DNA of 34,948 nt from positions 1-34,948 of the forward strand of contig CALVCV010000014.1 of NCBI GenBank assembly GCA_944326155.1, read 5' to 3'. The translations under genes and the position numbers were made by a program. The notes beneath the pieces were generated by a model. The model was not told the DNA's origin, did not search any database, and was given only the letters and a program-made list of their open reading frames with translations. The stretch comes from an uncultured Bacilli bacterium. Its GTDB lineage: Bacteria > Bacillota_I > Bacilli_A > ML615J-28 > CAG-313. Below are positions 8,798 through 13,454 of this stretch, one piece after another; the first letter of the stretch is position 1, and each line of letters starts with the position of its first letter.

Positions 8798-9640
8798 ATG
8801 AGTAATAATAATATTGTACAAAACTTATTCAATAATTTTGATATTATCAAATATCCGCTATTTGTTGGTATTTTGTTATCTATAACGGCTTCTATACTAG
8901 GTGTTGTTTTGGTCTTAAAAAGATATTCAATGATTGGAGATGGTTTAAGCCATATTAGTTTTGGTGTATACGCTGTAGCAATTGGTCTAGGTTTTACAGA
9001 TACACCAATTTTGGTGGTAATTCCGATTGTTGTCCTTGCTGCATATATTTTATTAAGAATTGGTGAAAGTAAAAAAATAAAAAGTGATGCGGCAATCGCT
9101 CTTTTCTCATCAAGTGCCCTTGCTATTGGGTACATAGTGGGTTCGATGAAACATGGTGGTTTTACTATAGATATCAATAGTTTGATGTTTGGTAGTATAG
9201 TGTTTGCCAATAAACAGGATTTAATTATTATGGCTATTACTGCCGCAATTGTTATTGGTACATTTGTCCTTTTATACCATCGAATTTTTTCAGTAACTTT
9301 TGATGAATCATTTGCAAAAGCAACCGGTATTCATACAAGATTATTTAATATTTTATTCGCTTCATTGACTGCAATTACAATTGTAATTGGTATGCGTATT
9401 ATGGGAACTTTATTAATTTCTAGTATTATTATTTTTCCCTCACTTTCATCTATGCAAGTTTTTAAGAAATTTAAACATGTTATTTTTTCTTCTGCCATTA
9501 TATCAGTTGTTGCCTTCCTTGTTGCTTTCTTCATCTTTACCAATTATCCTTTTGGCGCAAGTGTTGTAGTTGTCAATTTAATTTTCTTTATTATTTTTGC
9601 AACAATTGGTAAATTATCCAATCGCTATGCAAGAGAATAA
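8798..9640 (+). CDS. znuB: Zinc ABC transporter permease (ZnuB-like, ABC-3 family)
   Basis: A 280-residue membrane protein with about eight hydrophobic segments. ABC-3 family signs include the N-terminal PLFVGILLSITASILGVVL, KRYSMIGDGLSHISFG, and the later ATGIHTRLFNILFASLTA. The open frame begins at GTG 8789, but ATG 8798 with AAGGTGA six bases upstream is the better start. It forms the membrane channel for the adjacent ATPase; the stop overlaps the next gene by 14 bases. Confidence 0.9.
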   Translation: MSNNNIVQNLFNNFDIIKYPLFVGILLSITASILGVVLVLKRYSMIGDGLSHISFGVYAVAIGLGFTDTPILVVIPIVVLAAYILLRIGESKKIKSDAAIALFSSSALAIGYIVGSMKHGGFTIDINSLMFGSIVFANKQDLIIMAITAAIVIGTFVLLYHRIFSVTFDESFAKATGIHTRLFNILFASLTAITIVIGMRIMGTLLISSIIIFPSLSSMQVFKKFKHVIFSSAIISVVAFLVAFFIFTNYPFGASVVVVNLIFFIIFATIGKLSNRYARE

Positions 9641-10382
9641 AAAAAACTTTCTTAAAGCCTATCAACTTGCAAAAGCAGATAAAACTCATATAAATGTAAT
9701 TGGCATCCAACAAGAAAAGATTCTTCATAAAACGATAAAGTATTATTTATCTAATGATAGTATTAAACATGAGATTAAAATAGCAAAATCAGCTTCTAGT
9801 TTTATTTATGTTGATGTTTTATCTAATGGTATGATTTATGAAGTACAAACAGCTAATTTTAATAAATTAAGAGAAAAATTAACTTTTCTTTTAGATAAGT
9901 ATCCTTTGACTATTGTCTATCCACTTGCTCATAACAAAACCATTTATAAAATAGAAACATTAGGTACCATATCTTCTAGCCGTAAGTCGCCAAAGGTGGG
10001 GAATATTTTTGATGCATTTAAAGAACTTTATAAAATTAAATTTTGTTTAAAACATCCTAATTTAAAAATTAAAATCTTATTAATTGATGTTGACGAATAT
10101 CGCGAAGTGATTCTTAAAAAACATATTCGTAGTAAAGGATATCTAAAACTGATTCAAGTACCAAAAGACTTATTTTTAGAAATTGATTTAAATAATCAAA
10201 TAGATTATCAAAATATTCTTTTAGAACTAAATCTAAAGAAACAGTTTACTTCAAGTGATTTTGCAAAAAGTGCTAGAATTACTAATCAAAAAGCAAGAGT
10301 CGCTTTAAATATTTTGTTATATTTAGGCATTATAAAAAAAATTGGTAAAATAAAAAATAGCTTTTTATATGAAAAAAATTAA
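9627..10382 (+). CDS. Uncharacterised EVQT-motif protein: PD-(D/E)XK-like domain plus winged helix
   Basis: A 251-residue soluble protein that I do not recognise by name. The N-terminal part has the order H34, K38, E49, D63, then E72-V-Q-T75, spaced as an alpha helix, a beta hairpin and the E-x-Q pattern of some PD-(D/E)XK nucleases; the next segment (LLDKYPLTIVYPLAH) is strongly conserved-looking. The C-terminal 55 residues (about 200-250: FTSSDFAKSARITNQKARVA, then a LGIIKKIG wing) look like a winged helix. Start ATG 9627 overlaps znuB by 14 bases, with no strong ribosome-binding site, so translation is probably coupled. It is the last gene of the zinc operon and ends at the terminator. Nuclease activity is inferred, not shown. 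Confidence 0.6.
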   Translation: MQENKKNFLKAYQLAKADKTHINVIGIQQEKILHKTIKYYLSNDSIKHEIKIAKSASSFIYVDVLSNGMIYEVQTANFNKLREKLTFLLDKYPLTIVYPLAHNKTIYKIETLGTISSSRKSPKVGNIFDAFKELYKIKFCLKHPNLKIKILLIDVDEYREVILKKHIRSKGYLKLIQVPKDLFLEIDLNNQIDYQNILLELNLKKQFTSSDFAKSARITNQKARVALNILLYLGIIKKIGKIKNSFLYEKN

Positions 10383-10421
10383 CAAAAAAGTAGTCTAAAT
10401 TTTTAGACCACTTTTTTGTTA
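10380..10421. terminator. Bidirectional terminator after the zinc operon
   Basis: Twenty-base arms (10380-10399 and 10402-10421) with a single A/C mismatch; A-runs on the left and T-runs on the right serve the plus-strand zinc operon and the minus-strand TSCPD gene. Confidence 0.87.
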
Positions 10422-10423
10422 AA

Positions 10424-10684
10424 CTATTTATTTCGTTCAATTGCTTGAAGTAATGCTATTGATAATTGATCAGCACAACTTGTAGGACGAGGGCCACAAG
10501 TGTTACCTCTTAGTAAAGTTGCAGCATCTTTTGCAAATCTACCTTCTAACAATTTGGAGATGGCTTTTAAATTGCCTGCGCAACCACCTAAAAAGCCAAG
10601 ATTATGGATGCGTCCATCATCTGTTAAGTCAAAACTAATTAATCTTGAGCATACTCCGGTTGGTACAAATTCAACATGTTTCAT
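10424..10684 (-). CDS. TSCPD-domain protein (TIGR03905-like)
   Basis: An 86-residue protein made of a single TSCPD domain, related to the C-terminal domain of adenosylcobalamin-dependent ribonucleotide reductase. The diagnostic PTSCADQLS is at about residues 67-75, and further conserved cysteines occur at C12, C35 and C63, which could bind metal. Free-standing members are common in Clostridia and Bacilli; their role is unknown. The ribosome-binding site AAAGGAGGA is strong, six bases before the ATG. It is transcribed divergently from nifS with a shared -35 element. Confidence 0.85.
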   Translation of the reverse strand: MKHVEFVPTGVCSRLISFDLTDDGRIHNLGFLGGCAGNLKAISKLLEGRFAKDAATLLRGNTCGPRPTSCADQLSIALLQAIERNK

Positions 10685-10708: not shown

Positions 10709-10737
10709 ATTATACATAAAAACTATAACTTTTGCAA
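10709..10737 (-). promoter_or_regulatory. Promoter of the TSCPD gene (shares its -35 with nifS)
   Basis: On the minus strand: TTGCAA (10737-10732), 17-base spacer, TATAAT (10714-10709). The hexamer TTGCAA is its own reverse complement, so the same six bases also serve the opposite promoter. Confidence 0.75.
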
Positions 10738-10760
10738 AAGTTTTGCTTTTATAGTATAAT
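10732..10760 (+). promoter_or_regulatory. Promoter of nifS-thiI (shares its -35 with the TSCPD gene)
   Basis: TTGCAA (10732-10737), 17-base spacer, TATAAT (10755-10760). The two divergent -10 boxes are exactly equidistant from the shared palindromic -35. Confidence 0.75.
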
Positions 10761-10789: not shown

Positions 10790-11929
10790 ATGATTTATTT
10801 AGATTGGACAGCTACTTCTAAACCATTAAAAGAAGTAGTCGAAGTATATAATAAAATGAATGAAGAGTATTGGTATAACCCTAGTAGTATGTACAAAAAT
10901 GCCGCCATCGTAAAAAGTTTAATTGATCGTGCATCCCAATCCATTTTTGCAACTTTAGGATTACATGATAAAAGTATTTATTATACATCAGGTGCTACAG
11001 AAGCTAATAACATGGCAATTCAAGGTTTTGTGATGCCATATAAAAACCAAAATAAACATATCATTACAACTGAAATTGAACATGCTTCAGTATATAATGT
11101 TTTTGAATTTTTAGAAAAAGAAGGATTTCGTGTTACATATTTAAAATGTGAAAATGGTATGATTGATTTAGATGAACTAGAAAAAGCTTTGACAAAAGAT
11201 ACCATTTTAGTTTCAATTATGTGGGTGAATAATATTATTGGTAGTATTAACCCAATGAAAAAAATAATTGATTTGGTAAAAGCTAAGTCACATGCTAAAA
11301 TTCATTCAGATCTTGTACAAGGTATCTGTAAAATTCAACCCGATTTTGATTTTAATGACCTTGATTTAATGACAATTACATTTCATAAAATTGAAGGTTT
11401 AAAAGGTATTGGTGCATTAATTATCAATAAAAATTTACAACTTAATCCACTTTTTTATGGTGGTCATCAACAAAATCAGTTAAGACCAGGTACAAATGAT
11501 GCTTCTTTAATTGTTGCTTCAGCAAAGGCTATACGCATTAATTTTGCAAAAACCATTATACATTATCAGTATGTCCAAAAGTTATATCATTATTTAGTAG
11601 AAAAATTAGCAAAGTTTTCCTTTATTGATATCAATAAAAAAGGTGATTATGATTTACTTGATGGATACTATTCTCCATATGTTTTAAGTATTAGTTTTAA
11701 AAATATCAAAGCTGAAACTGCTATGCATTTCTTAGAAGAAAATGATATTTTGGTTGGAATAGGTTCAGCGTGTAATGAAAAGACTAAAATGGTTGATAGG
11801 AGTGTATATGCTTTAACGAAAAGTGAAACAAAAGCATACCATATGATTCGTATTAGTTTAGGTTATCACAACACGATTCAAGAATTAGATTATTTTATCG
11901 AAAAATTACAAGAGTTAGGAAATAAATAA
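10790..11929 (+). CDS. Cysteine desulfurase, NifS/NifZ type
   Basis: A 379-residue PLP enzyme that takes sulfur from cysteine and carries it as a persulfide. The N-terminus MIYLDWTATSKP is a variant of the usual YLDxxAT; the PLP lysine is K200 in FHKIEGLKGIGAL, and the sulfur-carrying residue is C328 in GIGSACNE. The length suits the family. ATG 10790 is chosen over GTG 10781, since AGGTGAG would then be the ribosome-binding site. One base separates its stop from thiI, and in B. subtilis the desulfurase NifZ next to thiI delivers sulfur for tRNA thiolation; the same partnership is inferred here. Confidence 0.9.
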   Translation: MIYLDWTATSKPLKEVVEVYNKMNEEYWYNPSSMYKNAAIVKSLIDRASQSIFATLGLHDKSIYYTSGATEANNMAIQGFVMPYKNQNKHIITTEIEHASVYNVFEFLEKEGFRVTYLKCENGMIDLDELEKALTKDTILVSIMWVNNIIGSINPMKKIIDLVKAKSHAKIHSDLVQGICKIQPDFDFNDLDLMTITFHKIEGLKGIGALIINKNLQLNPLFYGGHQQNQLRPGTNDASLIVASAKAIRINFAKTIIHYQYVQKLYHYLVEKLAKFSFIDINKKGDYDLLDGYYSPYVLSISFKNIKAETAMHFLEENDILVGIGSACNEKTKMVDRSVYALTKSETKAYHMIRISLGYHNTIQELDYFIEKLQELGNK

Positions 11930-11930
11930 C

Positions 11931-13178
11931 ATGGAAGATCATATTTTAATTAGATATGGCGAATTAAGCCTTAAAAAAAGCAATCGTAAACAATTTACTC
12001 AACGAATTCAAAATCATATCAAACGAGCTTTAAAAGTTTTTAGTAAATTATCTTTTGAATCAAGAGGTATGCGCTTTTATATTATGCTAAATGACGAAGA
12101 TTCGAAACCAATTATTGATATTTTACAAAAAATTCCGGGAATTTATTCTTTTAGTGTTGTTTCAAGATGTGCATCTAATATGGATGATATATATTTTTTA
12201 GCAAAAAAGCTTGTATTAAATGAATTAAAAGATGATAAAAATAAAACATTTAAAATTGAAACCAATCGTGGTGATAAAAGTTTTCCTTATACATCAATTG
12301 AAATTACCAAAATGGTTGGTAGTTATCTATTCAAAAATATTGAAGGTTTAAAAGCTGATGTACATCATCCAAATTTTACTCTTTATTTAGATGTAAGACA
12401 TGAAGGTTCTTTTTTATTTACTAAAACTTTTATAGGAATGGGTGGCTTTCCAGCGGGTAGCCTTGGTAAAACTTTATTGATGATATCTGGTGGCATTGAT
12501 AGTGTAGTTGCGGGATATTTAACTATTAAAAAAGGAATGAGTGTAGATGCTATCCACTTTGCGGCACCACCTTACACATCACCACTTGCTGTTCAAAAGG
12601 TCATTGACCTATTAGAAACCATAACACCTTATACCGAGTATCAAGATATTAACTTATATGTTGTTCCTTTTACGGAAATTCAAAAAAGCATCTATGAGTA
12701 TACCCAAAGCGATTATTGCATCACAATCATGCGTAGAATGATGTATCGTATTAGTGAACAAATTGCTAAACGTATAGGTGCGTTAGCTTTAGTCAATGGT
12801 GAAAATGTTGGCCAAGTAGCTAGTCAAACACTTGAAAGTATTCAAACCATTGAACAAGTTACGTCGATGCCAGTTATTAGACCACTTGCAATTTTTGATA
12901 AACAAGATATTGTTAATATTGCAATGCGAATAAAAACTTATGATATATCGATATTACCTTATGAAGATTGTTGTACAGTTTTTGTTCCTAAGCATCCACA
13001 AATTAAACCTAATCTAAATTATACCATTGTTGAAGAAAACAAAATTGATTATAAGAGGATGATTGAAAAAGCAATTGCTGATACTGAAAGAATAGTTTTA
13101 AGAGTCAATAAACATTATGATTATTTACTCAACAATCAAGATAAGAATAAAAAACAAGAAATAGAAGAATTATTTTAA
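11931..13178 (+). CDS. thiI: tRNA 4-thiouridine synthase ThiI (no rhodanese domain)
   Basis: A 415-residue tRNA sulfurtransferase that makes s4U at position 8 of tRNA. The N-terminal ferredoxin-like and THUMP region runs to about residue 170; the PP-loop ATP-binding motif is SGGIDS (186-191). Cysteines C263 (SDYCITIMRR) and C347/C348 (EDCCTVF) are candidate sulfur carriers. The protein stops after the PP-loop domain, lacking the C-terminal rhodanese domain of the E. coli protein, like the Gram-positive version that works with NifZ. It follows nifS with one base between. Confidence 0.93.
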   Translation: MEDHILIRYGELSLKKSNRKQFTQRIQNHIKRALKVFSKLSFESRGMRFYIMLNDEDSKPIIDILQKIPGIYSFSVVSRCASNMDDIYFLAKKLVLNELKDDKNKTFKIETNRGDKSFPYTSIEITKMVGSYLFKNIEGLKADVHHPNFTLYLDVRHEGSFLFTKTFIGMGGFPAGSLGKTLLMISGGIDSVVAGYLTIKKGMSVDAIHFAAPPYTSPLAVQKVIDLLETITPYTEYQDINLYVVPFTEIQKSIYEYTQSDYCITIMRRMMYRISEQIAKRIGALALVNGENVGQVASQTLESIQTIEQVTSMPVIRPLAIFDKQDIVNIAMRIKTYDISILPYEDCCTVFVPKHPQIKPNLNYTIVEENKIDYKRMIEKAIADTERIVLRVNKHYDYLLNNQDKNKKQEIEELF

Positions 13179-13253: not shown

Positions 13254-13454
13254 ATGAATAACTCATCTTACTCTAAAAATAGATTAGTAGTACCTGGTTC
13301 TGAAAATGCAATTAGTCAAATGAAATATGAAATTGCAAGTGAATTAGGTGTAAACCTTGGCCCTGATGCAACAGCTCGTCAAAACGGTTCCGTTGGTGGT
13401 GAAATCACACGTCGTTTAGTGTCTATGGCTCAATCAAATTTACAAGGTAAATAG
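13254..13454 (+). CDS. Alpha/beta-type small acid-soluble spore protein
   Basis: A 66-residue DNA-coating protein of the dormant spore that protects DNA and serves as amino-acid store at germination. The family core is clear: [20 protein letters not shown], then [19 protein letters not shown] and [11 protein letters not shown]. The germination protease site is Y-E26-I-A-S-E30, cut after E26. Ribosome-binding site CAGGAGGTG is strong, and a terminator follows. It is a single-gene unit. Its presence is direct evidence of sporulation ability in this lineage. Confidence 0.96.

Follow-up and report, generated by a model that had tools for sequence, protein, structure and literature searches.

In this Bacilli genome, the divergent TSCPD gene and nifS-thiI operon are separated by two promoter sequences that share a single palindromic -35 hexamer, TTGCAA, and this architecture was exactly conserved at all ten divergent nifS/TSCPD loci of the family and absent where the two genes have been separated. 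We consider it likely that the site works as a compact bidirectional sigma-A promoter, with two divergent transcripts served by a single palindromic -35 and with mutually exclusive starts. The first-pass annotation had described divergent promoters with one common palindromic -35, a description that family-wide comparison bears out as a feature kept by selection.

The window, meaning the whole stretch of 34,948 nucleotides that was analyzed, is contig 14 of a 1.44-Mb genome with a G+C content of 24% (435-kb sample). The intergenic interval from TSCPD to nifS spans 105 bases between start codons ATG 10684 (minus strand) and ATG 10790 (plus strand), with good Shine-Dalgarno sites for both genes (AGGAGG and AGGTGAG, respectively). 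The pattern ATTATA-N17-TTGCAA-N17-TATAAT lies within it at 10709-10760 and comprises the shared -35 (10732-10737), the nifS-thiI -10 box TATAAT (10755-10760, plus strand), and the TSCPD -10 box TATAAT (10709-10714, minus strand). The sequence and coordinates annotated earlier were exact, including the minus-strand TATAAT at 10714-10709 and both 17-bp spacers. In a promoter scan, these two promoters alone were listed for the interval with matches at 10 of 12 positions, each with an additional 18-bp register. Predicted starts at ~10702 (TSCPD) and ~10767 (nifS-thiI), ~65 bp apart, would give leaders of ~18 and ~23 bases.

TSCPD (10424-10684, minus strand) encodes a TSCPD-domain protein of the 4-Cys family (TIGR03905, 91.2 bits, cut-off 67.7). 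On the other side, nifS (10790-11929, plus strand) encodes a nifS/iscS-type cysteine desulfurase (Aminotran_5; best NCBIfam matches NifS/DndA/IscS, all under equivalog cut-offs), followed one base past its end by thiI, encoding tRNA uracil 4-sulfurtransferase (11931-13178, plus strand; TIGR00342, 363 bits, cut-off 264.5). A terminator-like hairpin with a 20-pair stem and a T tail lies 3' of TSCPD (10379-10422, minus strand); because the inverted repeat is long, it may double as a terminator for the convergent gene (9597-10382), which encodes a 261-amino-acid protein without a significant Pfam match, whose homologues sit beside TSCPD in several of the family's genera. Downstream of thiI is a gene for an alpha/beta-type small acid-soluble spore protein (13254-13454), from which we judge that the organism probably sporulates.

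TTGCAA is the sole palindromic hexamer that starts with TTG, and hence presents TTG first on either strand. It matches the -35 consensus TTGACA at four of six positions each way, and by this comparison it is a compromise -35, predicted to be weak in either direction. Both promoters had been called consensus-like, which holds for the two -10 boxes and the spacing but not for the -35.

We compared 15 genomes of family f1 and 13 divergent nifS/TSCPD loci of its sister family, f2, the relatives including metagenome assemblies. All ten f1 genomes with divergent nifS and TSCPD, distributed over five genera, kept TTGCAA with 17/17 spacers and -10 boxes 40 bp apart, although five of the ten belong to one genus (g1) and are not independent. 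The nifS-side TATAAT was present at all ten loci and the TSCPD-side TATAAT at nine, with TATACT in G008. NifS in these genomes was 43-64% identical to that of the window; given that unselected DNA would be scrambled at such divergence, the conservation of the promoter reflects selection. Invariant columns of the 52-mer fell nearly all within the three hexamers, where one -10 base varies, a GCA at -44 to -42 of the TSCPD promoter, and the TT before the -35. In f2, nifS and TSCPD are also divergent, and a -35 common to both was found at 0 of 13 loci; there, judged from the top-scoring promoter of either strand, the -10 boxes were 53-130 bp apart and each side had its own -35. Among 80 TSCPD loci from other genomes, just 8 had a NifS homologue nearby, and we rejected the idea of nifS and TSCPD as a universal functional pair.

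Genus g2 provided a natural experiment. In its genomes, TSCPD has been relocated downstream of thiI, beyond a spore-protein gene in some of them, and the hexamer of its promoter is TTGAAA in three, TTGACA in one, and degenerate in one of five genomes; the nifS promoter of g2 is unrelated. In the NifS tree, whose deep forks are weakly supported, g2 paired with g1 (99/98 support). Given that g3, g4, g5, and g6, which have the shared box, fall outside this pair, the ancestor of g2 most likely inherited the shared box and later gave it up. Most simply, the palindrome would be kept because both strands need a TTG.

In a pattern search, the full pattern occurred once in the 1.44-Mb genome, whereas base composition predicts ~0.002 occurrences per genome and ~8e-8 in an interval of 105 bp. 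A pattern search of 395 Bacilli genomes found it in 18, and the reversed pattern had zero matches in the same genomes. The 18 sites consisted of nine nifS/TSCPD loci, six Cca/YigZ loci (genus g151), two miaA loci (g90), and one other; the tenth nifS/TSCPD locus, with TATACT, lies outside this count. When the centre was relaxed to WWGCWW, TTGCAA accounted for 18 sites versus 13 for the other 15 centres together. Counting shared palindromic -35 boxes against chance in related genomes, as the first-pass annotation had proposed, thus gave an excess of TTGCAA centres (4 independent loci observed, ~0.9 expected, Poisson p ~0.01), though just four independent loci have them. The decisive evidence against chance is the conservation at nifS/TSCPD.

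The Cca/YigZ locus represents a second, independent conserved case of a shared -35, in six species of genus g151: TTGCAA and the 17/17 spacers were intact despite Cca identities of 53-82%, so that at least two loci have retained a shared box. At these loci (L079-L084, ~1501-1552), the box lies between divergent genes for Cca (tRNA nucleotidyltransferase) and YigZ/UPF0029, and the YigZ-side half (29 bases) is identical throughout. In two other species (L085 and L086, ~1494-1552), TTGCAA with 17/17 spacing adjoins miaA, with the miaA-side -10 box ~6 bases from the start codon; this position would leave the miaA mRNA with almost no leader, unless the match is one-sided. A looser form, with one spacer of 18 and, in G000, TATAAA on one side, is conserved in G000 and G004 (L041 and L033, 1501-1553) near a gene resembling the RNA polymerase delta subunit.

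Given the established recognition of the -35 by sigma region 4, only one RNA polymerase should be able to occupy the box at a time. We infer promoter activity both ways with mutual exclusion: sigma region 4 would hold the hexamer in one orientation at a time, so that initiation in one direction should preclude initiation in the other and, by this reasoning, the two genes are probably started only one at a time. TSCPD and nifS-thiI would then divide initiation at one polymerase-binding site used in two orientations, and a strong activator on one side would act as a repressor of the other side.

The pair also includes a candidate directional element omitted from the first-pass annotation. It belongs to the TSCPD promoter and consists of AGCA at -45 to -42 (minus strand, 10747-10744, within the nifS spacer; the numbering rests on the predicted start), an A-rich stretch, and GC at -33/-32. 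Its GCA begins nine bases ahead of the hexamer in the TSCPD direction and was invariant at all ten family loci; it was also kept at three of five g2 loci and at several f2 loci whose -35 is not shared. AGCA is absent on the nifS side. The Bacillus subtilis Spx promoters trxA, trxB, and nfrA likewise have AGCA at -45 to -42 and an A-rich stretch, and of these only trxA and trxB share GC at -33/-32 with the TSCPD promoter (PMC2801614). At trxB, the promoter is read by Spx with alphaCTD, and T at -34 improves the sigma-A -35 (PMC2801614). Unlike in the B. subtilis promoters, the -35 is here common with a divergent operon, and the element also occurs before ribosomal genes in the family. We suggest, with less confidence than for mutual exclusion, that alphaCTD, with or without Spx, could use AGCA to tip the choice toward TSCPD.

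Overlapping divergent promoters are known from other systems. By sequence, our locus belongs to the back-to-back type of overlapping divergent sigma-A promoters, given that both -35s are the same six bases at 10 of 10 loci. It would resemble the bidirectional promoters described by Warman, Grainger, Wade and colleagues in that two mutually exclusive RNA polymerase orientations arise via core-element symmetry; however, in those promoters the -10 is shared and the distance between starts is commonly 10, 18, or 23 bp (PMC12825309, PMC10268837), whereas here the -35 is common, the -10s are separate, and the starts are predicted ~65 bp apart. Their definition leaves out separate divergent promoters (PMC12825309, PMC10268837), and with -10 hexamers 40 bp apart and starts ~65 bp apart, the TSCPD/nifS promoter lies outside that class, though it may work like its members. 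The Pc/Pr pair of plasmid pLS20 likewise consists of divergent overlapping sigma-A promoters of a Gram-positive element, used by one polymerase at a time, but the model preferred by its authors places either -10 on the -35 of the opposing promoter (face to face), and one of its two genes encodes the regulator (PMC4207663). In contrast, our promoters have coinciding -35s (back to back), with no known regulator gene next to them. Given that neither system has a common -35, this feature sets the locus apart from both as a variant of overlapping divergent promoters. A literature search for a shared -35 yielded no named precedent, which is weak evidence since subscription papers were mostly outside its coverage. 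Overlapping -35 regions in individual divergent promoters are mentioned in older literature.

Whether the geometry amounts to a switch is a separate question. In a reciprocal switch, raising one direction would lower the other, and tRNA sulfur transfer and the TSCPD protein would alternate, a reading that we regard as possible but somewhat unlikely. Consistent with it are the common -35 and the optimally spaced pair of consensus -10 boxes, the repression of the opposite direction by activated Escherichia coli bidirectional promoters (PMC12825309), and the operation of pLS20 Pc/Pr in this manner, with a regulator (PMC4207663). However, all five E. coli bidirectional promoters tested had basal activities insufficient for competition, which was seen only upon strong one-sided activation (PMC12825309), the -35 of our promoters is weak, there is no known need for both products to alternate, and g2 has separated the genes. 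Given that competition needs strong activation, a switch needs a regulator and not geometry alone; the earlier proposal of a built-in reciprocal switch, which named no regulator, is therefore not supported as stated. The Spx-type element is, from its sequence, the only candidate that we found for steering direction.

A special case of the bidirectional promoter is a redox switch steered by Spx, in which oxidised Spx with alphaCTD on AGCA and GC would load polymerase toward TSCPD and shut off nifS-thiI in disulfide stress. The layout equals that of B. subtilis trxB, and the genome encodes one Spx orthologue (G000:C2:116298-116621, CxxC motif; NF002459, 153.5 bits, cut-off 123). Genus-wide, among the matches listed, GCA stood six bases before TTG in 39 of 150 TTG-N20-TATAAT rows, versus ~8 per other offset (~5x), a significant enrichment in which orthologues among the rows are not independent. 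Some other genes with the element, named by eye from sequence, are redox-linked (ferredoxin and a Fur/PerR-like regulator). Nevertheless, GCA at -44 was not enriched in a 435-kb sample of the genome itself (2 of 78 TTG-N20-TATAAT sites), g2 has lost GC at -33/-32, and the stricter form GCA-N6-TTGC also stands, in family genomes, ahead of the growth genes tuf, rpsL, rpsF, rplS, rpmB, secG, and pheS (names assigned by eye). The hallmark Spx target trxB mostly lies close behind another gene, with no separate promoter in evidence, and the trxB loci examined had no GCA element upstream; we dropped trxB as a test of the element on account of this missing promoter. We consider a redox switch of this kind unlikely.

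Because it is found before ribosomal and tuf genes too, the AGCA/GC layout does not appear specific to thiol stress in the family. In f1, GCA-N6-TTGC-N19-TATAAT was seen ahead of tuf, rpmB, secG, rpsL, rpsF, rplS, and ferredoxin (e.g., L096, L110, L212, L214, L215, L116, L217, L184, and L174), and may represent a promoter element for alphaCTD or Spx that is used throughout the lineage. In B. subtilis, alphaCTD itself supports ribosomal-protein genes (PMC4495994), and repression of translation genes by Spx has been reported (Schafer 2019, cited in PMC8957991). Distinctly doubtful is the broader proposal of a promoter class with one shared palindromic -35 (TTGCAA, 17/17) in which a one-sided AGCA, bound by Spx-alphaCTD, would direct polymerase and thiol stress would turn it from nifS-thiI to TSCPD by geometry alone.

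The weak -35 also counts against a bidirectional promoter as what selection preserves; that may instead be the binding of another factor to the palindrome GCA-N7-TGC. As the operator of an unknown dimeric regulator, this palindrome (GCAAAACTTTTGC here), which overlaps both promoters, would place both genes under joint control, consistent with its palindromic layout and the invariance of GCA and TTTTGCAA at 10 of 10 loci. We find this quite improbable, given that no known regulator gene adjoins the site, that the palindrome is broken in g2 (GCAATACTTTTGA) yet GCA is kept, and that neither the constant 17/17 spacing nor the CAA half would be accounted for. A regulon of such an operator was rejected as a candidate: outside the nifS/TSCPD interval, GCAANANTTTTGCAA occurred only within coding regions. 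Promoter-like matches abound in this AT-rich genome (25 observed, 28 expected), which would fit a chance coincidence of two -35 boxes with no consequence. We find this reading barely credible given 10 of 10 conservation in five genera, an expectation of ~0.002 occurrences per genome, and the lack of the box where nifS and TSCPD have moved apart.

Until now, descriptions of bidirectional promoters have relied on a shared -10, and a conserved shared -35, as in the bidirectional promoter that we favour here, would represent a second geometry. The family offers a natural experiment, in which the box was kept while the genes were divergent and replaced once they were separated, together with an independent second case. 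With this system, one can ask directly if competition between polymerases is by itself sufficient to couple two genes, and if a one-sided alphaCTD element can choose the direction of transcription.
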